A DNA stretch of 64,000 nt from Cystobasidium ongulense. Its lineage: Eukaryota > Basidiomycota > Cystobasidiomycetes > Cystobasidiales > Cystobasidiaceae. Both the position numbers and the translations under genes were made by a program. Below the pieces are notes generated by a model. It was not told the origin of the DNA. It saw only the letters and a list, made by a program, of their open reading frames with translations, and did no database searches. The stretch lies in contig BQUP01000003.1 in the NCBI GenBank assembly GCA_022835595.1, positions 1,536,975 to 1,600,974 on the forward strand, given 5' to 3'. This document shows, piece by piece, positions 1 to 18,500 of this stretch; position 1 is the first letter of the stretch; every line of letters begins with the position of its first letter.

Positions 1-357
1 CACGTGCAAAGAGGTCGCAGCAGCGGTCATGCGGCTATTTACGTCAGCGGTGTCTTGGTGGTCACGTGACTACAATGTTACAGGCAGACTCCCTTGCGTC
101 AGCGCTGACTAAGCTATACAGGATACAAAAGGGCTTTTTACTTTTTATTCGAATAAATGTCCGTCCTTTTACTTTCATAGCCCAGCAACGAGCGCGTATA
201 CAGTTCTCGTACTCAATGATATCATAGGGACGTAATGGACACGCTCAATAACGCCCGACCAAGTATTGCACAATTCACGGGGTATCGGCTACTGTCACAA
301 AGGTACAGGGCTAGATCAGATATTTTTGACCTGGGCCTGTACCTTTGAATAGTTGAT
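1..357. other. Unassigned left edge
   Basis: I see no gene here. The only clear structure is a 12-bp perfect inverted repeat (298-309 and 336-347, arm CAAAGGTACAGG) around a 26-nt spacer. It ends about 10 bp outside the duplicated RAD16/5S segment. CACGTG and GTCACGTGAC motifs occur at 1-6 and about 60-70. Confidence 0.5.
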
Positions 358-802
358 GCCGTCTTGATAGTGGATCCCTGGTGGTAGGTCGTCGGTCCAC
401 TTGACCATGCACCAGGATTTAGCTGAGAATACCTCTCCGGTCTATGGGAACCCCGCAGCAGAGCTTCTAGCCATGGACAGAATCCACAGACTTGTTCGTT
501 TAGGCCTTTAGACAGGGACAAACTCTGCGAAAAACTAACATCCAAATCTTTTTGATTCTCCTTTAGGGTCAACATCGGCCAGTCATCGTCAAGCGACTTA
601 TCATCGAGAACAGCATTGAAAGCAAGATCGTGGAGCTCCAGAAGAAGAAAGAGAATATGACTGGAGCGTATGTCATTTTCATCACCCACTCGCTTACCCC
701 AATGCTGACTCCATTCTTGACGCTCGCAGTGCACTAGGAGACGACGACCAGGCTTTGGGGCGCCTCACACCAGAAGATCTCTCTTTCCTTTTCGTAATGT
801 AA
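358..802 (+). pseudogene. Truncated copy of RAD16 3' end
   Basis: The segment holds only the last part of RAD16: DPWW at the end of one exon, the exon coding for [15 protein letters not shown], the exon from [11 protein letters not shown] to KKENMTGA, and the final exon ending in LSFLFVM and a stop at 800-802. No SNF2 ATPase core or RING precedes it. Compared with the intact gene on the minus strand, the acceptor before the NPAAEL exon has changed from CTATAG to CTATGG, and a Gln codon reads Leu. It is therefore a non-functional fragment of a host gene that arrived with the inverted duplication. The two last exons are still unchanged at protein level, so the copy is fairly young. Confidence 0.88.
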
Positions 803-1140
803 TCTTGGGTGGACCCTCCAGTTAATATTTAGGTACGAGGTGTGTGTCACGCCGAGGTAGATTCTTCGGTATTGGGTCTGCGTGTTTGGAAGGAAGGAAA
901 AAAGGTGCGGTATCAGCTGGTTTGACTGACCGTAGTGATTGGGAAATAGAGGAGGAACTTGAACGTACGCTTTGACTTGCAACATGTAGTGCACATTATG
1001 TAGATTTACTGAGCAATGGCCCTCTTTCATGCTTTTGCAATGCTATCTTCGGCAACGACCTGAAAATCTTAAGCTGGCTGCCAGGTATCGTTGACTGCCT
1101 CCAGCCGTTGGTTATATTCCGACTTTGCACCCAAATCTTC

Positions 1141-1258
1141 ATCTACGGCCATACCAAGCAAAAAGCACTGCATCCCGTCCGATCTGCAAAGTTAAGCTGC
1201 TTAGGGCCTCGTCAGTACTATGGTGGGGGACCACATGGGAATCCGAGTTGCCGTGGAT
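1141..1258 (+). rRNA. 5S ribosomal RNA (left copy)
   Basis: This 118-nt gene has the standard eukaryotic 5S layout. The 5' end ATCTACGGC pairs with the 3' end GCCGTGGAT to make helix I. The internal control region includes AAGCACTGCATCCCGTCCGA and GATCTGCAAAGTTAAGC, and GGTGGGGGACCACATGGGAA lies near the 3' end. A TTTT tract follows for Pol III termination. It differs from the copy at 14667-14784 by two bases near the 3' strand: GAGTTG against GAGGTG, and GTGGAT against GTAGAT. The first change departs from the usual GGTG of 5S genes, so this copy may be the poorer one. It is dispersed among protein genes, not in an rDNA array as far as the window shows. Confidence 0.93.
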
Positions 1259-1290
1259 CTTTTGTAACTTCTTTTTGCACATTTACAAAA

Positions 1291-1964
1291 GAATTGATTA
1301 GCATGCGACCTTGCGTTATGTGATTTGCGTACGTTTGCTACACTATCTGGTTTAAGCGTGGTTTGAGCGCTTGTCGGCTTTTTTTGTGTCTTTACCTTCA
1401 CCAAAAAGCTCTGTTCGTGCTCGCTATCCCGCATCAGTCTATACGAGCACAGCGCTCCAGAAGGGCAAGGAAAACTTACAGTATGCTGCAATAATCGTGA
1501 AGAGCATGATAGAAACATGCTTAGAAATGCCGCTATCACTCGTTGAGAATCCCATTTGTCTAGTGCACCAGACGCGACGGGGTGTACCGGAAAGAGAAGA
1601 TCAGTAGCTTAAGGACGCCTTGAGAATGCATCCCGCTGCAATTGACATTGCTGGCATGGAAACAATGCAGACCAGCAGTGGTTCGCTTGCACTTCTTATG
1701 CCGCTGTCCTTCACGTGTACCTGCGCGCGAGTTGCCTTCAAGCTTCTTGCATGCGTACCATTCCATTCTTGAACCGGGACATTCCAGACTACACTCCTTT
1801 ACAGCAGCAAGAACGTGGACACCATCTTCTTCTTGGATCTAGGAAGGATGCGAGTCCCCTCTTGACAGTCACATCTTGCTAAACGCGGTGTCGTCGGTGA
1901 ATGCTTCTGGATGAAAACATTGGTATAGACCCCCAGCCTAGAGGGCTTGATCCAGTTCGCAAGC
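1291..1964. other. Intergenic region upstream of YEN1
   Basis: About 670 bases between the repeat arm and the YEN1 start codon. Small open frames exist on both strands, but none has recognisable content or a convincing intron pattern. It presumably includes the YEN1 promoter and 5' UTR. Confidence 0.5.
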
Positions 1965-4868
1965 ATGGTGGGTTCATTCGATGCCAGTTCTACACATTCG
2001 TCACCTTATCGCTGTGTTATGTTCCACCGTCTAGGGCGTCGCCGGTTTGTGGGCAGAGATCAAGCCGGTCGCAGTCAGGCAATCCTTCGAGAAGACAGCA
2101 TTCGCGGTCTTTGACGAGGCCTACGAAGCTCTTCAAGATGGCCATCCTATCGAGAAAGGCACAACACTGGGGCTACGAGTGCGTCCAGACTGCTCCACCT
2201 GCTCTGCTCTGCTCGTCTCTTGCTCACCTTGTCGATCATCCTCGTACTTGTTTAGGTGGGTATCGATGCAAGTGCCTGGTTCATACACTCGGAAAAGTCA
2301 GAGGGTGGAGGTACGATTTATCGCTGTGCTTGCAAACACGCAGATGAGAAGACTAAACAGTCGTTTAACTCTCGCAGCCAACCCCGCCCTTCGCAACATG
2401 TTCCATCGCGTGATTAGACTTGCTCGAGCAGGCGTTAGAGCTCTTTTTGTCTTTGATGGTCCTCACCGTCCTTCTGTTAAGCGTGGCCATCGCATATACC
2501 GCGGGAGCCATTCCATCCAGAAAGATTTCGAGCGTATAGTGGAAGCTTTCGGCTTTGAGTGGCGCACTGTAAGCAAAGCTAATACATCCCCCATCAGGGC
2601 ACGAGCATGGCAGGCGCAATCTAACGTGTATGTACCTCTACTTAGGCGCCTGGAGAAGCAGAAGCAGAGCTAGCGTATCTAAATCGGCGAGGAATGCTGG
2701 ATCTAGTCATTACCGATGATGTAGACTGTCTCCTCTTCGGAGCTAGCACATTGAGTAGGCCTACGGATGCTAGAAACAATATGCTACAAAGCTGATGAAT
2801 CTGCCCTTTCAGTGAAACACGCTCTGATTAACCAGGTCACCGAAGGTATCTATCCTCAATTGTTCGAGCGGGGTACCATAGAATTAGAGCTTGACATGAC
2901 AGTGCCTGGACTTGTCCTTGTCGCTCTGATGTCCGGCGGCGAGTAAGTAATCATCCATAGGTCGAGAACGAGTTTGGGCAGCTAAACATTATTGGGCAGT
3001 TACGATACCTCTGGGCTGACCGGCATTGGACCCAAGATATCGCTGGCCTTGGCAAGAGCTGGATATGGTGAACGGCTCCAGACTATCATGACGGAGTTCA
3101 CAGGGCAAATTCTGCAAGATGAACTTCAAGCGCTCCGCGACGACATCCGCCATGAAATGCGGACTAACCAGTCTGGCTTCTTCGAACGCAAGGCTGGTGC
3201 TGTAGCAAACAAATTCCACGATCAATGGCCTGATGTCGCTGTTGCAAATAGCTATTACAACGCAGTTACTTCAGAAACAAAGAAGTACCGCCATTTCGAT
3301 AAGCCACATCTTTGGCACCGAAGAGTCGATGTCCCTGCACTCGTTACAATAATGGATGACTTGTTTGAATATGTGCATGCCGAAATTCTGCAAAAGTACG
3401 TCCGGAATAGTGTGGGTCGCCATGTGGAAACGACTGACTTGCCTTTCATAGATTGAGGAGCCAGATTTGGGAGTGCATGGTCGTACAAGACCTGATCTGG
3501 ACAATTCGCGACACTGGTATTGCGCTCTCAGTGTCCCCTGCTGGATCGCCGAGCAAGGTGCTAGCTGCAAGTTTAGGCAGTGTCAGCCTGAACAGGTCCA
3601 CTTCAGACAAGAGTGACAGCGCCGCAGCAGACATAGTACTCCACCGCATAGACAAGAAAAGAGCACCGCCTAAGAAGTCTGAGAACTATATCACAGACGA
3701 GCTTCAACTGATAGTGGATCCGAGTCCAGCAGCGTCGCTCGCACAGAAGCACCTTCAACATCCAGACCCAAACATTGGCAAGCTGCAGGCGAGAAAAGAA
3801 GAGGAGGCAGCAACAATACGCGCTCTATATGGCCCTGATCATCCTGGTGCTGTCCCTGCTCCGGCTAGAAACTCCCAGTATGACAATCCCCATGAAAGTC
3901 AAAAGATGTGGATTCAGGAGAGCCTGCTAAGAATGGCAGTTCCGGGAATGGTGTTGGCGTGGGAAGAACGGGAGCAGGCTAAGATTGAGGCTAAAGCTAA
4001 CAAGGGAAAGAAAGCTGCAAGCAAGCAGCCCCCTACTGGAAAGAAGAAGGTCGATGCGACAACCAGAAAGTCTAGCACGCCAACAAAGTCGTCGAGGAAG
4101 GCTGTAAAACCAAAAGCAACAGCCCAATCGGACTCCGAGTCAGAGCTGGAAGACCTCTTTCCACCGTCGGGTTCGCAGGATGTCTTTTCTTCCCCTGCTA
4201 TGACAAAAGATACCTCGGGCTCAAGTACGACCCAGAGCCAAGCCGGCGCGAGAGTGTCTGTCAGCGCAAGTGCCGCAATCTACAAGAGGCCTAAGGACCG
4301 AAAAGCACCTTCATCCTCAAGCAGTTCCGATTCCGACATCCAGCTGATAAATGCACCCCAGGCGGCTCCTCGTAAATCGCCAAAGAAGTCTCCACGGAAG
4401 TCTGCAAATCAGACGACCGCTCGAGGTCCTCAATCATCTGTAGATGATGGCACAAATGGACCTGCACCACCCATCATAGCTTTCAATGTGGTCAAGAACG
4501 GAGGGGCCCATACGCAAAACAAGTCTTACAAAATAGATGGGGCACCTAAGCCTACAAGCAGACCCGACCCCCCAAAAAAGAAGTACACCTATCGCGATCT
4601 TGTCGACAGCGACGCTGATTCCGATGGGGATGAGGAACTGCCTTCACTTAGTCATCTGCTGAAGCCGAGCGACAAGACTAGACGTCGAGGAAGCTGGGGT
4701 TCGGCAAACAGCCTGTCCACTTCAGGCTCGCGAAGCTCATCTTCTAATTCGACGCAAAAGCCTTCACGAGACGCAGACGCTTCTTCAGAAGGCAGGAAAG
4801 CGTTTGTTAAAAAGGCCATCCGTCCGGTGCCGAATAGCCAGATTATCGATCTCTGCTCCTCGGACTAG
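1965..4868 (+). CDS. Holliday-junction resolvase, XPG/Rad2 family (Yen1/GEN1)
   Basis: This is a structure-specific endonuclease that cuts Holliday junctions and 5' flaps in nuclear recombination repair. Eight exons give 814 residues: 1965-1967, 2035-2178, 2256-2310, 2378-2568, 2646-2754, 2813-2942, 3000-3395 and 3452-4868. All phases close. The first exon is the ATG alone, and splicing yields MGVAGLWAEIKP, the expected Rad2-family N-terminus. The XPG-N part has VGIDASAW and VFDGPHRP. The XPG-I part has APGEAEAELAYL and ITDDVDCLLFGA with the acidic metal ligands. GGDY plus GLTGIGPKISLALARAGYG is the helix-two-turn-helix seen in Yen1 and GEN1. The C-terminal ~450 residues are low-complexity, Lys/Ser/Pro-rich, and end in IIDLCSSD, a likely SUMO-interacting motif. 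FEN1, EXO1 and XPG fit less well because of this domain order and the long tail. Confidence 0.93.
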
Positions 4869-5102
4869 ACACGAGATGTAAGATGGCTATTGTGTAGGTT
4901 TGGGCACAAGTGCTACCAGTCGTTCAATTTTAGTTGCATAAGTCGTTGCAGTGTCGCATTGAATCTTTGTTGTTGTTGCATCAGTCAGAAGAAAGGTAGG
5001 CTCAGCTTGTGAATGCTTTGCAATGCATATACCGTGTTTGTTCACATCTAACAGTGTTGCGATATCAACTTGCATTTTACTTTAAATTGCAGATGAGATG
5101 GC
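4869..5102. other. Convergent 3' region YEN1/CTNNBL1
   Basis: The two stop codons face each other across 234 bases. AT-rich runs here could serve 3'-end formation on either strand. No gene is visible. Confidence 0.4.
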
Positions 5103-7391
5103 TTAACAACTTCTTAAATACGAGATAAGATGCCCGATAATTTGGCGTTTGTTTGCGGCATCTGCCTCTGCTGCGGCGTCCGACATGCTCAATTTCGCCT
5201 CTCCCTCCCCCTCTGATGTACCTCTTGGCGAATCACCAATGTTATCTTGATATTCCTGGAGAACCTTTATCACCTCCGCGAACGATGCGCCCTGGTTTGA
5301 TAGCGCTGTCTTTGTGTGATCTCGGGCCTGTTGTTGGCGATAGTTAGCCAACCTCGTCTGATAGACGTGAGGAGAACAGGTACTTACTCCATCATCTTCC
5401 ATACATACCCACGCTAACACATAGTCTGCTAGCTGTAAGCTCAGCAAGCCCGCTTCAAGCTTATTGAGGTATATTTCAACATCATCAAGCTCCAAGCCTT
5501 GATCTGCCAGATCTTGCCGCTCGGTATCTAACTCTTTCTCCCTTTTCCTGATACGGTTGAGCAGACTTACCCTCAAAGCCAGCAAACGATCAAGCTTAGC
5601 GTAGTCGTCCTCAATAAACTTCTTCAGCACTCGTATTCTAGGTATCGAGTCACTCTCGAGGTTAGATAGAAGAGCCGCAAGAATCGCTAGAATATGTTCT
5701 TCGTCTTCAGCTGTGAGGTTATGTGCCGCTCGTTTCTTCTTGTCCTTTTCGTTTTCCTGGTAAGTATGTTGCGATCAGCACATGGATTGGCAGTTTGAGG
5801 TTAGCATGTCGTACCTTGTTCATGAAAGCCGAAAACAGACTCTTCAAGCCAAGTACTTCCACGAACCGCTCGCAGGCTGCTGTACCAGCGTCACCAGTAA
5901 GAGCGTGATCAAGGACTTTGATAGCTCTGTTGCGTGCTAGCATCTTGTCCTTCATCATGATGACCATCAACTCAACACCTTCCTCCTTCAAGAATTGGGC
6001 CTTGTTCTCAGGTTCCGACAAAGCCGAGCAGACGCAATCAAATACGTTTTCCATGTACTCTGTCTCTTCAGCGCCGTACGGATCTCGCTTTCGATACGTT
6101 GACAGCACTTTGAGGCATGCCTCCATTCCCGCATTCTTCCCGAACGCTAGACGGGCTTCGCGACCCGTTTCCGCGCCTTGCAGGATTATGGACAAAAGCT
6201 CGGCTGCGTATTGCCTATTCTGTGCGAGAGAGTCATCTTCGCGCTTGTCTTTGTCTTTCTTCGAGGGGAGTTGCAAGCGCTTCAGAAGCCAAGGGATGAA
6301 CGAGGTCTGGGTAGCAAAGGTGCGGCTTAGATTTGGTGAAAGGGAGAGGAGATTTTCTATGAGAGACAAGGAGTGGTACACGCCCGTTCTTTCCTGTTCT
6401 TCATCTTCGTTGAGGCGCCCAAGGTTGTTTACGAGCAGTTCTGCCAGTTGTGCCGATAGGAGGGCATTCGCAAAAGCTACAACAGCTGCTCGCCGCGCAT
6501 CTTCATCTTCGTCCTCATCTTGACCGTCCTCTCCCTCTGCAACGTCTTCGTCTGTAAGCTCTTCGAGTACTTGTATGACTGTGAGTGAGATATCTACATT
6601 TTCGTGCGACAGTAAGTCCGCTAGGGAATTGACAATGCCTAGTTTGATGAGCTCTGGGTAGTATTCTTTTGGATTTTGGGTGAGTAAGAGCAGTTCTTGG
6701 ATGGCGCTGTCTAGTGCGACCTCAGAGTCAACGAATCTGAAGAATAGTACGTTAGCTTTAATACAGCTCGAGGCCAAGTAAATAAGCTATGCAGAGATGT
6801 CCTCTTACTTGTCAGCTTCGCCACTCCACTTTATGCGCATTTCGGAATTTTTGTTGATAGTTCGTTCAAGATTGAGCAGCTGTCTTCTCACGCTCTGTAT
6901 GCTGATCCTCTGAGCAGCGGAATCATCTTCGCCAGCCTGGTCACCTTCGTCGAAGATGTCCAGGATCTGTTTCTGCGTAGACGAGAGGCCACCACCGAAG
7001 AACCGCCCGTCCTCGTCGTCTTCCGCAAAGTAGTCGCCGTCTCCACCTGGAGGAGCAGCTTGATTGTAGCCATCTTGCTCGTCTTGCAGGTCAGTGGCCG
7101 CTTGCATGTCTTGGTCGGCATCATCCTCGTCTTCGACAGTCACGGCGGTAGCTCTCTGCTTGCCCTTTGAGGTTGGTAGATCTGCAGTGTATGTATATAT
7201 GAGTATAGTATGCACTGCACTGCGGTGTATGCATCTTCTGGCTCACCTTCAGCTGCTTTCCGCTTGTTCGAGACTGAAGAAGTGCCACCGCCTGGCAGTT
7301 TCGGTGCCTATGGTCGTGGGAACCAGCATTACGACTGAGTGACCGTTGCATTATTGAATGGATGACTCACCTTGAAGCCATCGCCGTCCAT
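5103..7391 (-). CDS. Beta-catenin-like protein 1 (CTNNBL1)
   Basis: CTNNBL1 is a nuclear armadillo-repeat protein associated with the Prp19/CDC5L complex of the spliceosome. Five exons give 676 residues: 7371-7391, 7247-7307, 6809-7181, 5815-6736 and 5103-5756. All phases close. The first exon is only 21 bases and codes for MDGDGFK. A Lys-rich, nuclear-localisation-like N-terminus (NKRKAAEDLPTSKGKQR) and an acidic stretch come first. The conserved CTNNBL1 block follows: KFVDSEVALDSAIQELLLL, NPKEYYPELIKLG, NSLADLLSHENVDISLTVI and LEELTDEDV. The armadillo helices and the C-terminal ENIGD-like segment (QDNIGD) are present. A 30-base in-frame GT...AG stretch at 5358-5387 is read here as coding. 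The start lies 148 bases from the RBM42 start on the opposite strand. Confidence 0.94.
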
Positions 7392-7539
7392 TGCTCAGAG
7401 TCTCAACTTGTCTGTTCAGCTGCAGTCGCCGACTTCCAAGCTGGAAACTCGCTTTCTGAATCAAGCTGCGTCTTTCGCTTTTACGCCAACTGCAGCAAAC
7501 CGACCACAACACCTACAGCTCTCACCCGGACACACAGTC
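7392..7539. promoter_or_regulatory. Shared divergent promoter CTNNBL1/RBM42
   Basis: Only 148 bases separate the two start codons, so both 5' UTRs and both core promoters must lie here. I see no TATA box. The two products both act in pre-mRNA splicing, which makes joint control plausible but is inference. Confidence 0.55.
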
Positions 7540-8744
7540 ATGTCCTTTAGACCAATTGGAAGCGCACCTGCTGCATCGCTGCCCAAGAAGCCGGCGTCTC
7601 CTTCAGCAGCGAGTCCTCCAGCAAACGGTGAGCCGGCAGCAGCTCCAACAACCGCTTCTGCAGTACAAGGACCTCAGATTCCAGCACAGCAGCAGCCTCA
7701 GCAGCAACAGTATCCCGCGTACTCGGCTGGAACTAGCTACAGCCCTACAACAGGCTACAGTGCCTCGGCCGCTGTGGCTGGACCGTCTTATGATCAAGCC
7801 GGACAGGCATACCCTGGGTACTCGGGCTATGGAGCAGCTGCATACCCTGGCTACGATGCTTACTCGGCATACGCTGGTGCTTCGTCTGGATATGACTATG
7901 CTGCGTCGGGATACGGGTATGGAGGTTCTAGCAGTGCTGGTCCTTCAAATGGCTATGGAATGACCGACGAGGAGCTAGCTGCTCAGCAGTCAGCGTGTGA
8001 GTTCTCCTTTTTGTTAGCGTCAGCTTATCTGGTCGTGTCTGATGTGTAATTGATGTAACGACAGACAATCCGGACAATGCACAGCAGCAGGACGGCAAGC
8101 CAAAGCACGTCAAAGGTCAAGCTCGCCGAACAGTCCTACGCAAGGGTGCTGGAGAGGTATGGGAAGATCAGACCCTCATGGAATGGGACCCTAAACATTT
8201 CAGGCTATTCATTGGAGATCTTGGTAACGATGTCAATGACGAGGACCTCGTCAAAGCTTTTGGACCAGACAAGGGATGGAAGAGCTTCGTGAAAGCCAAA
8301 GTCATTCGAGACAAGGTTACGGGCAAGACAAGAGGCTATGGGTTTGTCAGTTACTCGGATCCTGAAGACTTCATGGTAAGTTACATTGCGTCTGTGCTAT
8401 TCCAAGGCTTCGCTGACCATATAACTTGGCCAATTCAATGCTCCTCTGCTATTTAACGCGCATTGTGCGGCTCACAGAAAGCATGGAAGGGAATGGAAAA
8501 CAAATACATAGGTTCGAGACCCGTCAAGATCTCCAAGGCGACTACCAAAGTTGGCCAGATAGACATTGGAGAACGCAAAGCACGCGAATTGGACACAAAG
8601 AAAAAGGCACATACGGTCGGCAACAAGGTGAGCTGCAAATCGTCTTCCTGCTAGATGCGTGCATGTGCTAATATCGTCTCGATTTAACAGGTACGAGGTG
8701 CCGTGGCCCTGTCTGGTACTTGGAAACCGTATATCCGACGTTAG
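7540..8744 (+). CDS. RNA-binding protein 42 (RBM42)
   Basis: A single-RRM protein of the RBM42 family, which in other eukaryotes is found with the U4/U6.U5 tri-snRNP. Four exons give 323 residues: 7540-7996, 8065-8375, 8478-8627 and 8691-8744. All phases close. The first ~150 residues are Ala/Gln/Tyr-rich low complexity with Tyr-Gly-type repeats. Then comes the RBM42 signature: TVLRKGAGEVWEDQTL and MEWDPKHFRLFIGDLGNDV, followed by RNP2 (LFIGDL) and RNP1 (KTRGYGFVSY). The RRM ends in GSRPVKISKATTK, and the tail is short and basic. The start follows from the first in-frame ATG and the near-adjacent divergent gene. Confidence 0.93.
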
Positions 8745-9261
8745 CGGGTGCGTAGTATGAGGCTGTCTTCCGCGTGACATTGGAGAACTGGCCTTCAAGT
8801 ACCGCGGCAGGATAACGACCAACCTTTTGTCAAGTGTATTGCTACCGTCCATTACTGTTTTTTGCAAGTGGCGCCCATGTTGTCGGCAAGCTTGCTCGAC
8901 TAGCGTCTAGATGCGGGCAATAGATTAACGGCTTGTATGACTCTTCAGCTATCTATCATCTTCTTGCTTCTTGTGCAGCCATCCTTCGTGCACCTTGCGT
9001 TTGCTACGGTGCATTCTAGAATTTGCGGTGCTTTGTCAGCCGATATTCACACCTTCAATCTATCCGACTGACCTTGCTTTCATTCAAGCTGACTCGACTC
9101 GACTCGCTGGGACGATACACGTTGCGAGCATCGTCGAGACCATGTCAGGCAGCAACAGCAAGAGCAGCAGTCATCGAATACTGTAGGCGCAGCGTGCGAC
9201 TCGAAAGCGACGCCCTTTGCAGCAGCCATCCATCACGTGGGTCGGCACAGCAAGATCAATA
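8745..9261. other. RBM42-RAD5 intergenic region
   Basis: About 517 bases that hold the 3' end of RBM42 and the promoter and 5' leader of RAD5. No further gene is visible apart from the upstream ORF listed separately. Confidence 0.5.
9142..9186 (+). promoter_or_regulatory. Upstream ORF before RAD5
   Basis: ATG at 9142 opens a 14-codon frame (MSGSNSKSSSHRIL) ending in TAG 76 bases before the RAD5 start. It could dampen RAD5 translation if it lies in the mRNA leader. I tested splicing it into RAD5 from the GTAGGC at its end, but the phase does not fit. Confidence 0.4.
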
Positions 9262-12200
9262 ATGGAGTTCCTCGAAGGGTTCGAAGAGGACGACAATCCG
9301 CAGCTGCTGGATACGACAAAGCCCGTCTCCAATGGCGCACCATCGCTCTCGAGCTTTTCGCCTGGCCTGCAGAGCCTGCTCAATCCAGACGGGCTCGATG
9401 GGCCCTCGAAGAGCAACAAGCTAGAAACATCAACAGCAACGACGATGATGGCAGGCCAGCCAGTGCCGAGCAGCCTCAATGGGCATGCCATGCTCGGGAG
9501 TGACGATGATGAGATCACAATGACTGGCTTCAACGCGCCTAGCTCCTCGTCGCAGGAGCTCCAGTCAATGAACGGAGCAGGTCGCAATGGCAACCTGCAA
9601 CAGCAGCAAGGCACCCTTGCGTCAAGTGCATGCAGCGATACACTCTCTGAAGGTGTATCTCGCCCGTTTCTTGCTCAGCCAAGCCAGCCCGGTCCACCGT
9701 CAGGTAGCTTGTTCAGGCCGATTGCCTCGACGACCTCAAACACCATGCACCCTTCAAGTACGATGTCTCAGAGCAACGGCTCGTATGACTACCTTACGAA
9801 TCCCTCCAATACAGGCTATGGCAATTCAACTCTCGGTCGCATACCTATCGTAGGAGGTACAGGCGGGTCAGGCTCTCGAACGCCTGGAACGCCTTACGGC
9901 TCTACATCTGCCAGCAATTCTACACCCGCAGCTGGACCGTATGGCAGCAGTTTCCCTTCTACAAATACTCAGCCGTATGACCTATCGCAGCCTCCTACTG
10001 CAGGTCTGCAGCACTCCATTCAATCATATCCTGGTACGGTTTCTGGAAACCAATCCTACTCTCAACATCAGGTACAATCACCTAATGGGTTCACCCACCA
10101 TCACTCTCAACAAAGCCGCCCATCATCAAGCTTTGCTTCCTCGAGTACTGGCTTCGGCGTACCTGGACCTTATGCTAACGGGTCATACATCATCCCTCCA
10201 CCAACTCAGGTTCCATTCCCCTCTACATCTTCGTACGTACCCTCACAAAGCAGTCGTCAGCTGGGAAAGCAAAGTCGCAGCAACGCCAGTAGTGCTATCA
10301 TCGATCTCACCGAGTATGATGACAATGATACGGGCTCAACTTCTAACAATGACTTTGGAAACGGCACAAGCATAAATAGTGGAGGTTCAGACGATGAAGT
10401 GAAGATCTCATCGGAGAAACTGCACCTTAAAGTACCTGAAGAGGAAGATGATGATCTTGAATTGGTCGGGGAAAGACCCAATGAAGCTACAAATCCGGTT
10501 TGTATAGGACAACTTTCTGGAGTGGCTTTGATTTTATACCCTATTGCAGAATTGTGCCCACCCCGAGACAATCCTCAAGCTTCCTCTGCATCACTAATGC
10601 CACCCGCGTCATTATCCGTAGCTCTACTTCGAACTACCACTCAGATGCCGAGTCCGAACGGGAACGAGACCATCAAGCTGTATTCTGCGCAGACTTGGGA
10701 GAACTTTGGTGTTGTAGAACATCGTCTTGCAAATGTACTCGGACCGATCATGACGCGAGATAATAAGCGAGGTATGGGAGTATGGGTGGAAGCGAAAGTG
10801 ACACGCTCGAGGGAAAGAAGTGTGAGTGCTTTTAACCGTTATGAGGGGTCAAAAAGCTCGAGCTAATGCCTACTACACTACTTTCTCAGCCAATGATGCT
10901 CCCGCTCACAATGCTCCTTTTCTGTCATCCTCACCTCGTCAAAGCAGTGGCCCAAATTTTAGAGAAGAGCGCCATCTACCTCGAGCATCCACCCACCTAT
11001 GATCCCGCAATGCACGGCGGCTTCAAATACAGCAACCCACATGGGGGTGCTATTACAGCCTCGGCAGCGGCGCAACGAAAGCAACAAGTAGTGAATGGTA
11101 TCCAAGGCTCATATGGTACTTCTGGGTATTCATCTGCTTTATCTGGATCCAGGTATGGAGGGGGACAGGTAGGGGCAGCCAAATCGGTCGAGGTGCAACG
11201 CGAACAAGTAGAAGAGATGTTCAAATCTATTCAATCTGGTGCCGATCTAGGAGAAGCTGAACCTTCTGCATTGTTGCACACCAAGCTTTACCCACATCAA
11301 AAACAAGCTTTGGCTTTTTTGCTGGATAGAGAAAGGTTAAGGACTGTAGACGGAGTTTTGAATCGAAAGAATGGAAAAGATGAGAAAAGCGATTTGGTCG
11401 AAGACGAACTTATCTCGCTTTGGAGGCCCAGAAAAGATCTCTACGGACGCTTCATCGGATGGCAGCACGTGGTGACGGAAGTAGAAATTGGAAGCGATAG
11501 ACCACCTCCTCAGTGTAGAGGCGCTATACTAGCGGACGATATGGGCTTAGGCAAGACGCTCGTCATCATCGCCCTCATTGCGGGCACATTGAGCGAAGCC
11601 AAGGCTTTCGCCTCACAACCGCCGGTTAAAGAACGTGGAGATCGAGAGTCTTTCGATGCTTTAGCTGCTCATCCAATGGGCAAGCCAGTCTCCCTATCGG
11701 AGTTTAAGTCACCTCTGTACGGACAAAGTGGGGGATCCTTCAGCTCTTACCGCCTGAACGACACTACTGGAAAAGGCGGGAAGAAGAAAAAAGAGTCAAA
11801 AACACAGAAGAAGAGAGAAGATGCCGAGGTTGCTCGCTTGGACAAATTACAAGTTAGAAGCAAAGGTACCTTGATCGTATGCCCGCTTTCAACAGTCGTC
11901 AATTGGGAAAGTCAGATTGAAGAACACATAGGCCTAGCCGGGAAGGCTGCTGTTGCCAAAGGAAAGAAGAAAGAGGAGCAAAGTAGATCATCCACTCCTG
12001 CTGATGGCTTGTCGATCTACATTTATCATGGCAACAATCGTACCAATGACCTAGCAGAATTAGCCAGCTACGATGTTGTTCTCACCACTTTCAGTACTCT
12101 TGGATCGGAATATTCTCGTCAAAGTCGCAAAGAGCAGCAGGACGAGGAAGGTACGGACAGCTCAGAAAGCGGCATCGAAGAGCTCGATAAGGATGGTCAG

Positions 12201-14256
12201 CCTATGAAGCTGAAAGGCAAGAAACGCAAACGTAAAAGGATCGAAGGTGATGCTATGAGTCCGCTTCAGCAAATTGAATGGTTCCGTATCGTCCTTGATG
12301 AGGCTCAGTAAGTCTTTTGCGAAGAAGAACAACATGCGATGTCACTGATATCAATTTACTCTCAGTATGATCAAAGAGCATACGACTATTCAGGCGAGGG
12401 CTGCTTGCGAGCTGTTGGCGGAGAGAAGAATATGCTTGACCGGTACACCGCTACAGAACACCCTGAACGATCTCTTTTCCCTGATGCGCTTCCTTCGCTT
12501 GGAACCTTTCACTGATCGTGCAATGTGGACGAATTACATCGGAGCTCCTGCCAAGATCGGTGATCCACTCGGAGTATCTCGTCTCCAACTTCTCATGAGA
12601 CATCTTGCTTTGCGACGCACCAAACAAACGAAAGATAAAGCTGGGAAACCTATTCTTGAGATACCGGAAAAGAAAGATGAACTCAGATACGTTGAATTAG
12701 ACGAACAAGAGAAGGCATTCTACACATCCCACCATCGTCGATATAAGCACAACTTCGAAATGCTTCAGAAGAACGATACTTTACTCAAGAACTATTGCAG
12801 CATACTGCAAGAGGTCCTCCGACTTAGACAGATTTGCGCTCACATGGCTCTCGTACGGGATAGCGAGGATAGAGCAGATGCACTAAAGGGCGAAGACGCA
12901 GGGGACGTAGTTTCGGCTATCAAGGCACATGGAATCAGCAAAAGCCGCGCGCTGCGCTTACTAGCCCTCATGCGGGACACGGGCGCTGCACAATGTGATG
13001 AATGTGGGCAAGAACTAGCTCCGGGAGGCCTTGACAACGCTCAAGATACATTCGAGGAAGACTCGAACAAGAAGCCGAGGAAGATTAAGGGTGTAAAAAA
13101 GGAAAAGCAGAACGGCATTGTAAAGAGGGAGTCTGAAGAGACTTCCAACCCGTCGGCTCCCTCCCCCGTCTTGACTAGATGCCAACATCTTTTCTGTCTT
13201 GAATGCTTTCAGAAGAATGTTGCTATCAACTTTCCCGATGCTGTTACTGCAAGTGATCGTGCGACCTGCTCGGTTTGCAAGGAAGAAATCTCCCCGGTCA
13301 TCGATGCTATCCAAGTATCGTCGTCAGAAATTGATACTTTGGGTGCAGGTGATGGAGATGAAGACACTACCTCTGCTGGACGGTCAAAGCGTGTTGTTGA
13401 ACATAGCACCAAGATCAGGTGAGAGAATGTGGCTCCTGCGTTCGTGCCCTCAGCCACTTTACTGACTCTCCCGTCCGCAGAGCGCTCATACAAGACCTCT
13501 TTCCTCTATCTCAGAACAATCCGGCTTCCGCAAATTACGCAGGTGACTCGGTCGATCTATCAGTTTGCGACGAGGATCCGAAATTTAGACCTGAACATCG
13601 TGAAGCTACGAAGACTGTGGTATTCTCTCAGTGGACCAAGCTGCTAGATAGATGCGAAGACGGCTTGCAGGAGTGCAATATCAAGTTCGAAAGGCTCGAA
13701 GGTTCGATGAATAGAGCTGAACGATCACGCGCATTGGCGAAATTTAAGTCGGATTTATCTTGCGAGGTCCTGTTGGTCTCTTTGCGAGCAGGCGGTGTCG
13801 GGTGAGTAGCTGTCTTCAATTGAAGTATTCTGGCAATCTTTTCTGATACATCCTCCAGTCTGAATCTGACGCACGCATCTCGAGCATACCTAATGGAACC
13901 AAGCTGGAATCCGAGTGTCGAAGTATGTCGTGTTGTGCGTTAATTGAGTGTGTGATCTACCGCTGACCGACTTTTCTACAGAATCAAGCTGTTGATCGCG
14001 TGCACAGACTGGGAGCCACCAGGCCTGTGAAGTGCGTTCGTTTTATCGTGAAGGACAGCATTGAAGCAAACATGCTGGACATACAGAAACGAAAAGCACA
14101 ATTGTAAGTGATTGAATTCTTGAGCGAGAGGCGTGCTCCTTCACTCACATCCCGTTTTCTACACATTCCAGAGCAAATATGTCTTTGTCTCAAACCCTGT
14201 CGAAGGCGCAACTCGCGGACCGTCGCATGGAAGATCTTCGAACCTTGTTCAAGTAA
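9262..14256 (+). CDS. DNA-repair helicase and ubiquitin ligase, Rad5/HLTF type
   Basis: Rad5/HLTF proteins polyubiquitinate PCNA and remodel stalled replication forks. Seven exons give 1540 residues: 9262-10821, 10890-12307, 12366-13418, 13481-13801, 13859-13922, 13982-14103 and 14172-14256. All phases close. Residues 1-400 are low-complexity, with IIDLTEYDDND near residue 345, a good SUMO-interacting motif. A diverged HIRAN-like domain follows at about 410-580 (VCIGQLSGVALILYP to SAIYLEHPPTYDP). The SNF2 core has DDMGLGKT (~740), LDEAH (~990) and LTGTPLQNTLNDLFSLMRFL. A RING finger lies between the helicase lobes (~1200-1300; CDECGQ, RCQHLFCLECF, CSVCKEE). Lobe 2 has VFSQWTKLLD, LLVSLRAGGVGLNLT and VDRVHRLGATRPV. 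HIRAN plus embedded RING separates it from RAD16. It is convergent with RAD16. Confidence 0.9.
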
Positions 14257-14639
14257 TACACCAAGAGGACTTCCGCTCTATCGTAATGAATATGCTTGAT
14301 GTTGTTTTTGCTAGAAGCGCTATATAAGCGGCAATGTAGCTTTAAAGAATTACAAATATGGCGATGATGGCTGATGTTCGGACCCATTACAGCAAGGGAT
14401 GTCCAGAGAGTATACTTCAGGAAGATCCGCTGAATGAGCTACCTCCCGACTAGCGGCATTTGAGTAGCTAGCCTTCGCATTTCGTGCTACTCGGTTTCGG
14501 TGGTTTTTTTCCGCAATCTTAGATACGGCAGCGTATATCGAAAAAAGCTTACAGCCGCTGAAGTCTAACAGTGAGGCGAAGATAACGTCGACAGGAGTGG
14601 ACACATGCCACGTATGCATCACTTGTCAAAAGCTAATAC
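14257..14639. other. 3' region of RAD5
   Basis: About 380 bases between RAD5 and the right repeat arm. No gene or repeat is seen. The inner end of the inverted duplication abuts it. Confidence 0.45.
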
Positions 14640-15571
14640 ATGAAGAGTGCAAAAACATTGCAAAAGATCTACGGCACCTCGGATTCCCATGTGGTCCCCC
14701 ACCATAGTACTGACGAGGCCCTAAGCAGCTTAACTTTGCAGATCGGACGGGATGCAGTGCTTTTTGCTTGGTATGGCCGTAGATGAAGATTGGGGTGCAA
14801 AGTCCGAATATGACCAACAGCTGGAGGGCATTGAACAGTCAACGATACCTGGCAGCCAGCTTAAGATTTTCAGGTCGTTGCCGAAGATAGCATTGCAAAA
14901 GCATGAAAGAGGGTCATTGCCCAGTAAATCTACATAATGTGCACTACACGTTGCAAGTCAAAGCGTACGTTCAAGTTCCTCCTCTATTTCCCAATCACTG
15001 CAGTCAGTCAAACCAGCTGATACCGCACCTTCTTTCCTTCCTTCCAAACACGCAGACCCAAGACCGAAGAATCTACATCGGCGTGACACACACGTCGTAC
15101 CTAAATATTGACTGGAGGGTCCACCCAAGATTACATTACGAAAAGGAAAGAGAGATCTTCTGGTGTGAGGCGCCCCAAAGCCTGGTCGTCGTCTCCCAGT
15201 GCACTGCGAGCGACAAGAATGGAGTCAGCATTGGGGTAAGCGAGTGGTTGATGGAAATCACATACGCTCCAGTCATATTCTCTTTCTTCTTCTGGAGCTC
15301 CACGATCTTGCTTTCAATGCTGTTCTCGATGATAAGTCGCTTGACGATGACTGGCCGATGTTGACCCTAAAGGAGAATCAAAAAAAATGGATGTTAGTTT
15401 TTCGCAGAGTTTCTCCCTGTCTAAAGGCCTAAACGAACAAGTCTATGAATTCTGTCCATGGCTTGAAGCTCTGCTGCAGGGTTCCTATAGACCGCAGAGG
15501 TATTTTCAGCTAAGTCACGGTGTATGGTCAGGTTGACCGACGACCTACCACCAGGGATCCATGATAAAGAC
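14640..15571 (-). repeat. Inverted repeat, right arm (RAD16 3' end + 5S)
   Basis: Reverse-orientation partner of 358-1290. It carries the last three exons of the intact RAD16 gene, its 3' flank and a 5S gene. Relative to the left arm, the spacer just upstream of 5S holds a short extra stretch of about 7-8 bases. Because RAD16 is complete here, this arm is the parental arrangement of the RAD16 3' end. Confidence 0.9.
14667..14784 (-). rRNA. 5S ribosomal RNA (right copy)
   Basis: A 118-nt 5S gene on the minus strand, co-directional with and about 350 bases downstream of RAD16. Helix I is perfect (ATCTACGGC with GCCGTAGAT), the box C region and GGTGGGGGACCAC are intact, and the 3' part has the usual GAGGTGCC. 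A CTTTT tract follows. It differs from the left copy by two bases and looks the more canonical of the pair. Confidence 0.94.
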
Positions 15572-18500
15572 GCGAGAGGCTTCTGTGAGATTCAGTGCGA
15601 CACCACCTGCCTTGAGCGACAGAAGAAAGACTGTACAGTCTGTAGTGTTCATGAAGTATTTGATCCTACGTGAGCGACCAAGAAAGACATCAGTTTAGGG
15701 TTCGATCGAGCAACGCCAACCGTGCAGGATGAAAGCAGACTAAAGAGAGACTCACGTTCTGTCACGAGCTTCAGGCGTCATATTACCCTGTAATCTAGCA
15801 ATCTTGAAGCCAGCCAACTGTAATCTCCTAGCAATCAAATCCAAAAAACTAGTAAACTGGGAAAAGACTAAAGATTTGATAGAGTGATCTTCCGTCTTGA
15901 GCTGAGATAGCTCTTCAACCAGAGCTTCAATTTTAGTCGAAGTTCTCCATTTACCAGGATCTATTTTAGCTAACATTCCTTGTTTAGCATCTAACAATGC
16001 TTGCTCTGTCTCTTGATTTAAATCAATCGTCATAGGTAAATGACAGACTGGACATTCAGGTTCGATTTCGATTGCTGTTTCTAGATATTGTCGAATGCAT
16101 TCTCGACAGAAAACATGCCTGCATTTACTCATTATTGGATCATCGCCTTCGTCCAGACAAAGTCGGCATGTCGAGATTGATAAGGTCGCTTTACTGGCAT
16201 TGTCGCCTAGGAGTGCTTTTGCTGCTGCACCTTTCAAGACCATATCTGGATGGCATGCTGTCTGTCTCATTCGAGTGAGAAGTTGGAAAACGTTTGCATA
16301 GTTGTTTAAGAGCGAGTCTGCCGCGACGTAGGTGGAGAAGGTTCTCTTGACATCAGAGTACAGGGATGTGTAAAATTCTTCCTCTTCTTCAGTAAAGTAA
16401 TCGCGTCTAACCATGATGGCTCGAGGTCTGGAAGGGTAGACATCAATTTAGCCAACATTCCTGAAACCCCAAATACTGCAAGACTTACGGTAAACCCATA
16501 TCATCAGCTCTCTCAACCTTTGTTCTCCTCAACATCATCCTCGCCAACAAAAGAGACAATTTCTCAAATGCACCAGCTCCGTGAGTTCCTGCCATAGCAC
16601 CATATTTCTGAATAGGTTTCAAAATCTCATTGTTCCAGTAACAGATATGGTGCATAGGAGTATGACCACATTCATCACATGTTCTCTTATTGCTAAACCG
16701 CCAATGCAATGCTTTGCAAGGGCATTTCTTGCAATAATAATAAGCGAAGGGATCGACTCCAATGAACCGGATGAGAGAGTATAGCTCTCCGACTCTGTTT
16801 TGAAGAGGCGTTCCAGATAAACACCATCTATAATTTGCTTTGAGAGCAAAAGCACCTCTTGCAGTATTGCAAGAGCGATCTTTGATGTTATGAGCTTCAT
16901 CCAAAATGACGCGATGCCATTGTATAGAATGTAGCACCGAATCTTCTTTAATTAATTCTCCTTTCCTCTTGAAACCTTGATTTTGTCTCCTAAAACTCGA
17001 TTCCAAAACCGCATATGAAGTTAAGATAACATCATATTTAAGTAGTTCTTTCTTATCATTCGTACGATTTCCACCATGCCAAACGCAAACTTTCATTCCT
17101 GATGTGAATTTATTGAATTCATTTCTCCACTGCATAATTGCAACAGTAGGAGCTAGAACGAGTGTGTGTTTTCTATCCTTCTCGGTTGGATCGAAATCTG
17201 ACAATACGAGGGAAATCATTTGAATAGTCTTGCCCATTCCCATCTCATCGGCAAGGAGACCGCCTTGCCAAGGTCCTTTCTCTTGCTGAAGCAACCAGTA
17301 TAGTCCTTCTAATTGAAAGGGCAATAATTGCATAGTTAAACCAACAGGCTGATCCGCTTTAACAGGTTTAACGACTTCGACTGTCTTTAGGTTATCCCAA
17401 ACATCTCGAAGTTCAGAATGATGTTCCTGTAGAGCTATCTCGTTCTTCTGCCACCAAGTCAATTTGATCCCTGCTTTACGAGCATCTCTTGCTGCTTTCG
17501 CTAATGCTCTCTTGGTAGCTTTGGCGCTTGATGTGGACTTGATCTTGGTAGATCGGGAGGCACCACTTTCATCGATATCGGAGAGATCACTACTGCCATC
17601 TGTATCTTCGCTGACTGCTAGATCTTGATCTTCTTCTTCGTCCGCGGAATCGACAACAAAATCATCATCTCCTTCTTCGTCTGATAATGCCATTATCTTT
17701 CCTTTGCCTTTCTTACTACTGCCTGACACGACTTCCTTCTTGAGCTTATCAAGATCCCGTCGCGAGATGGTGGTCTTTTTGATGATAGTGACAGTCTTCT
17801 TCTTGCTAGCTGTAACCAGTTCTTTCTTGTTCTTGCCTTTCACGTTCTTCACTAGAGGAGAAGAAGCTAACTTTTCACCAATACTCTTTGCGACTTGCTG
17901 AGCTATCAAGCGAGAAGCAGTAATATAATCCTCGTCGATAGTTTCCTCCTTTGCATCGTCTGCAAGCTCATCTTCATCGGAAGGCACGAACACATCTTTT
18001 TCCTCTTCACTATCGGCAATAACTTTTGGTATTTTACCCTTTCGTAGACTAGAAGCGTCTTTTCTGAATACAAGATCGTCCTCGGTTTCATCGCCATCAG
18101 ACTCTTCCTTTTTCAATTCTACATTTTGGGTGGTCATGGGTGATGAAGTCGCAAAGGACGACCTCGCTCTCTTGTTTGCAGTGGCTTGTTTGTTCGCAGC
18201 TGATGATCCACCGCTCTTGACATACACGACAACTTCAGGAGAATTGCCACGCTTGGTTCTTCGGCGAGCGCTGGACGAGTTGGTGGCGTCGGCCGAGGCA
18301 TTTCGATTTGCAGAGACTGCAGGGGTGCCGTTGGAAGTGCTGGTGGTCTTGCTTGACGTACTGCAGAGTTCACATGTGTGTAGCACGCGTTGCGACAGCC
18401 ATTTGCGTCGCCATTTGTGAATTGCAGATCAATTTCGACAGGCGAGCGAGATTTACGCGATTGTGGCGAAATTAAAGGCGGGAGCGAGATGGCGATGAGG

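Follow-up and report, generated by a model that had tools for sequence, protein, structure and literature searches.

The DNA analysed here is a stretch of 64,000 nucleotides from Cystobasidium ongulense (contig BQUP01000003.1, positions 1,536,975-1,600,974), referred to throughout as the window, which holds a block of four genes enclosed between two inverted copies of the same segment. On the basis of Pfam and PDB matches, the block (1281-14646) encodes an XPG/GEN1-like protein (YEN1), CTNNBL1, an RRM protein (RBM42) and a SNF2-RING protein (RAD5). The Pfam matches are CTNNBL (6.5e-109) for CTNNBL1, RRM_1 (4.8e-10) for RBM42 and SNF2, RING and Helicase_C for RAD5, while the XPG_N match of YEN1 (5.9e-4) lies under Pfam's cut-off; YEN1 also matched the nuclease-like protein of PDB entry 5cnq (E 4.2e-9), which we take to be a GEN1. 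To the right of the block, on the reverse strand, lies the larger part of RAD16 (15573-18137), comprising SNF2 (1.3e-55), a RING domain (zf-C3HC4, 8.5e-10) and the start of Helicase_C, and a gene with a RhoGEF domain is found left of the window. These domains agree with the names YEN1, RBM42, RAD5 and RAD16 that the initial annotation had assigned. Three likely DNA-repair genes, the XPG/GEN1-like gene and the RAD5-like and RAD16-like SNF2-RING genes, occur together within 1960-18137, the latter two in convergent orientation.

Both arms consist of the RAD16 3' exons, the downstream spacer and a 5S rRNA gene, and they are copies in inverted orientation. The right arm (14647-15572, reverse strand) is contiguous with the remaining RAD16, and the left arm (360-1280, forward strand) is an inverted copy of that 3' end together with its spacer and 5S gene. 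Of the 929 columns of a gapped alignment, 876 are identical (94.3%), 42 hold substitutions and 11 are gaps. The ungapped blocks measure 549 nt (97% identity), 193 nt (90%) and 177 nt (94%); the longest identical run is 125 nt and the next 114 nt. The E-value of the pair in BLAST is 0, which excludes chance. A segment of ~0.93 kb in opposite orientation at both ends of a 13.3-kb block had been proposed in the initial annotation; both its presence and its orientation are borne out, the inner ends of the arms lie 13,366 bp apart, and the proposed identity of ~96% where aligned is close to the 95.4% (876/918) obtained once gap columns are dropped. Self-BLAST of the window and the 9,975 bases to its left returned no second repeat pair at E 1e-3, a search of the 19.77-Mb genome (19 contigs) with the arms gave, among the matches listed, the two arms and six matches confined to 5S genes and a few bases around them, and the inner flanks (1260-2000 and 14200-14665) matched themselves only.

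An inverted pair of this kind could in principle stem from the assembly, through a false join or a misplaced duplicate, and this assembly does contain gaps, including 10 N within a 5S gene at 381 kb of contig C1. Misassembly is nevertheless barely credible here, because 42 substitutions separate the arms, no identical run exceeds 125 nt and the window contains no N. We regard the inverted duplication as confirmed; rearrangements of its kind are already known. The scar is real and fairly ordinary, and a true flip of the intervening block is only one possible origin for it.

The two arms differ in what they preserve of RAD16. When joined, the 3' exons of the right arm match Helicase_C (6.7e-11), and the introns of the gene, with limits read from the sequence, are short (60-72 nt), a feature that, like the set of genes, points to a fungus. 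The left RAD16 fragment (360-801, forward strand), which we read as exon pieces A-D separated by introns 1-3, carries disabling changes: the acceptor of intron 1 has changed from AG to GG at 446, and an in-frame stop lies nine codons upstream of the DPWW motif with no ATG between them. Leu furthermore replaces the Gln of the 'QA.DR' motif, a residue that is Gln in all four of the PDB alignments shown (79 sequences matched). To judge from these changes, the left fragment looks dead. Similarity to RAD16 ends with the arm, none being detected in the 199 nt beyond 360, where 472 of 500 shuffles score as well. Since the right arm is contiguous with RAD16 and forms its real end, and the left arm has disabling changes, looks dead and has no similarity outside 360, the left arm is the derived copy, and the direction of copying was from RAD16 toward the side of YEN1. 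A duplicated full-length RAD16 with a decayed 5' part was considered as well and is rejected by the shuffle test on these 199 nt and by a tblastn search in which pieces of RAD16 were compared with the left flank (stretch L009 and positions 1-3600 of the window). Strong matches there covered the two final exons of the fragment and nothing else; over 334-384, which includes the DPWW end, a match reached E 0.61, and the best E among the N-terminal and middle pieces was 0.077. A single scan of viral contigs, for which part of RAD16 served as the query, turned up no relative.

A block bounded on either side by inverted duplicates, one of which is contiguous with an intact gene, shows the footprint described for Drosophila, where, according to the excerpts of two reports, inversions through staggered breaks leave inverted duplications at their breakpoints (PMC5080602, PMC7584159). 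Applied to this locus, as the initial annotation suggested, the block would have been turned over after breaks left of it and, in offset positions, at the RAD16 3' end, filling of the overhangs would have duplicated the segment at both ends, and YEN1 would ancestrally have lain directly downstream of RAD16 and its 5S gene. Such an inversion explains two close, inverted 5S genes without coincidence. In the excerpt of PMC7584159 inverted copies of 59 and 534-540 bp are given for the block ends, compared with ~0.93 kb here, and the same excerpt argues that the duplications of its own inversion could be footprints of repair. The present case also departs from the Drosophila inversions, as these excerpts portray them, in that a multicopy 5S gene marks one edge and a hairpin lies by the other, and in that the inverted state itself is hypothetical here. 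We consider an inversion possible but doubtful, as it makes no prediction of three features at the edges of the duplication: an inner edge that coincides with the edge of 5S-family similarity, a difference at 5S position 108, and the hairpin.

The inner edge lies at the 5S genes. Rfam identifies a full-length 5S gene (RF00001) in each arm, the left at 1141-1259 on the forward strand (104.3 bits) and the right at 14666-14784 on the reverse strand (112.2 bits), with two differences between them, at 1248 and 1255. The genome contains at least eight 5S genes, a lower bound drawn from the best-scoring candidates, which are spread over contigs C1, C2, C3, C4 and C6 with none in tandem; seven are complete and one has an N gap. 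The latter (G000:C1:381227-381314) is interrupted after 88 bases by the 10-N assembly gap. Homology between the arms continues 21 nt beyond the 5S gene, and the left arm resembles the five other complete 5S genes for 5-25 nt beyond, so that the homology at the inner end falls within the similarity of the 5S family. The duplication proper may accordingly end somewhere in the 5S gene or slightly past it. When 30 nt of 3' flank are compared, the score of the left arm is 10.5 against the right arm, 13.0 against the copy at 1377 kb of C1 and 6.0-9.0 against the other four. The 60-nt 5' flanks, by comparison, are alike between the two arms only (38.5 versus at most 9.0 for all remaining pairs among the seven complete copies).

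Within the gene, all 119 nt of the right copy agree with the copies on C6, C2 and at 1377 kb of C1. Position 108 is T in the left copy and in two of the five other complete copies, and G in the right arm and the remaining three; a base unique to the left copy stands at position 115, and at position 116 the left copy is of the right-arm type. A separate ancestry of the left 5S end is hinted at by the single site at position 108. Two further copies, at G000:C4:339330 and G000:C1:2385690, share a variant 3' end, GTTGCCGTATATC, which on our reading weakens helix I, and score 102 bits in Rfam compared with 112.2; GGTGCCGTAGATC is found in four of the seven complete copies, and the copy in the left arm is unlike both.

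Dispersed 5S genes of filamentous fungi are said to follow birth-and-death evolution, reportedly the finding of a 2005 PNAS study (PNAS 2005;102:5084, cited in PMC12633873). Like those genes, the copies found here have dissimilar flanks, but the arm pair differs in its ~780 bp of common 5' flank, of which no equivalent was found at the other six loci. When 1.5 kb on each side of these six genes was searched for second copies (best eight candidates for each), none of the six had one, so that duplication primed by a 5S gene is no visible habit of the genome, and the idea of a recurrent 5S-linked process finds no support.

At the outer edge, 12 bp beyond the left arm, ends an imperfect palindrome (298-347) with a perfect 12-bp stem and a 26-nt loop. 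No other hairpin in the 64-kb window has a stem of at least 12 and a loop of at most 40; sequences of 64 kb simulated under a first-order Markov model held 0.12 such hairpins on average, with none in 53 of 60 runs, and three earlier simulations had given 1, 0 and 0. Folding 285-360 as DNA yielded -16.8 kcal/mol, where shuffles averaged -5.98 (z -6.0), and none of 200 shuffles was as good. A further 46,740 bases, from L009 and six 5S loci, contained one such hairpin as well. This second hairpin with a 12-bp stem (L031:3361-3394) lies 239 nt after a 5S gene, a placement that may be due to chance as six of the seven stretches sampled were 5S loci. The exact 12-mer of the stem has three occurrences genome-wide, two of which are the hairpin's own arms, and an interpretation of the hairpin as a dispersed element was rejected, with counts at one mismatch or fewer (59 and 72) near those of the reversed control (55 and 58).

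A hairpin could have stalled a replication fork, and template switching of the MMBIR type has to be weighed at this point. The fork would have copied ~0.93 kb in reverse and then returned, carrying the 5S gene along as a passenger. This mechanism predicts the same arms and the same direction of copying, and requires neither an inversion nor a 5S gene already present on the left. It would, however, place the inner edge at the 5S end by chance and would leave the match at position 108 to coincidence or later conversion, and we consider it unlikely. In yeast, according to an excerpt of PMC10622511, inverted duplications are promoted when inverted repeats lie close to a break, and template switching at the repeats is one path proposed for them. 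The foldback and inverted duplications treated in that excerpt resemble the present case in having a short inverted repeat at the junction and inverted copying, but their short repeats sit at the centre of the duplication, whereas the segment copied here came from 13 kb away.

Divergence between the arms is uneven along their length. With limits between outer part and core that were set after looking at the data, substitutions number 19/193 at the outer end, 19/695 in the core and 4/33 at the 5S end (Fisher tests against the core, p 7.8e-5 for the outer end and p 0.017 for the 5S end), and of 5000 shuffles of positions, 15, 72 and 40 matched the observed cluster at lengths of 130, 100 and 190 nt, respectively. 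By feature, running inward, the counts are 3/26 in exon A, 9/64 in intron 1, 4/46 in exon B, 3/72 in intron 2, 0/102 in exon C, 4/60 in intron 3, 1/73 in exon D, 14/339 in the spacer, 2/119 in the 5S gene and 2/21 in the stretch past it. Exons C and D are themselves less variable than introns 2 and 3 and the spacer (1/175 versus 21/471, p 0.013). Conservation of exons and of the 5S gene is nevertheless rejected as the sole cause of the unevenness, since the contrast persists among noncoding sites (intron 1, 9/64, versus intron 3 and spacer, 18/399, p 0.006) and among exon sites (A and B, 7/72, versus C and D, 1/175, p 0.0009). Divergence is lower in the middle of the arms than near their ends, as gene conversion predicts, and this pattern suggests, as its likeliest reading, later conversion between the arms that fades toward their ends. 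Conversion implies that the arms have paired, and pairing with a crossover would flip the block; the identical runs of 125 and 114 nt could provide the substrate for such flipping.

The 5S edge, the variant at position 108 and the hairpin together favour repair from a 5S gene, and we favour one-sided repair primed by 5S homology, with no inversion of the block, over an inversion through staggered breaks, assigning it a probability of roughly 0.4. The direction of copying, the uneven divergence and the yeast findings on breaks near inverted repeats cited above also speak for it. Under this proposal, a break would have occurred near the hairpin at 298-347, beside a left 5S gene that was already present, and the broken end would have invaded the 5S gene that lies 13 kb away behind RAD16, in opposite orientation. 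Copying would then have proceeded from the 5S gene across the spacer into the RAD16 3' exons, until the new strand came off its template within an exon and was connected, in a joining that used no homology, with the opposite side of the break next to the hairpin. The outcome would be an inverted copy for which no inversion of the block is required. Afterwards, the left RAD16 fragment would have decayed, and gene conversion from arm to arm would have kept the middles of the arms alike.

Several observations weigh against repair from a 5S gene. It needs two 5S genes that were already inverted ~13 kb apart, for which our own arithmetic gives a chance of roughly 2% (any pair, eight genes in 19.77 Mb). 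Position 108 is one site, and its state could be due to mutation or to later conversion between 5S genes. The 3' flank of the left 5S gene scores lower with four of the five other complete copies than with the right arm. The association of the hairpin with the arm was spotted post hoc, and the simulations understate how common such hairpins are here, given the additional one in the 46,740 other bases.

Among the titles and abstract openings that we searched, an inverted duplication primed by a 5S gene was not found for fungi. For annotation, the left fragment should not be entered as a second RAD16 gene. A broader scenario, in which the dispersed 5S genes of this fungus act as homology anchors in break repair and arms lying around DNA-repair genes (YEN1 and RAD5, by RAD16) still exchange, making the orientation of the block polymorphic, is in our estimation quite improbable. 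If the block was inverted, the locus would add a fungal case to a footprint described, in the excerpts cited above, from Drosophila. If the duplication was instead primed by a 5S gene, it would provide a concrete route from dispersed 5S genes to duplications and dead gene fragments, and by either mechanism the arms may serve as a substrate for further flips.
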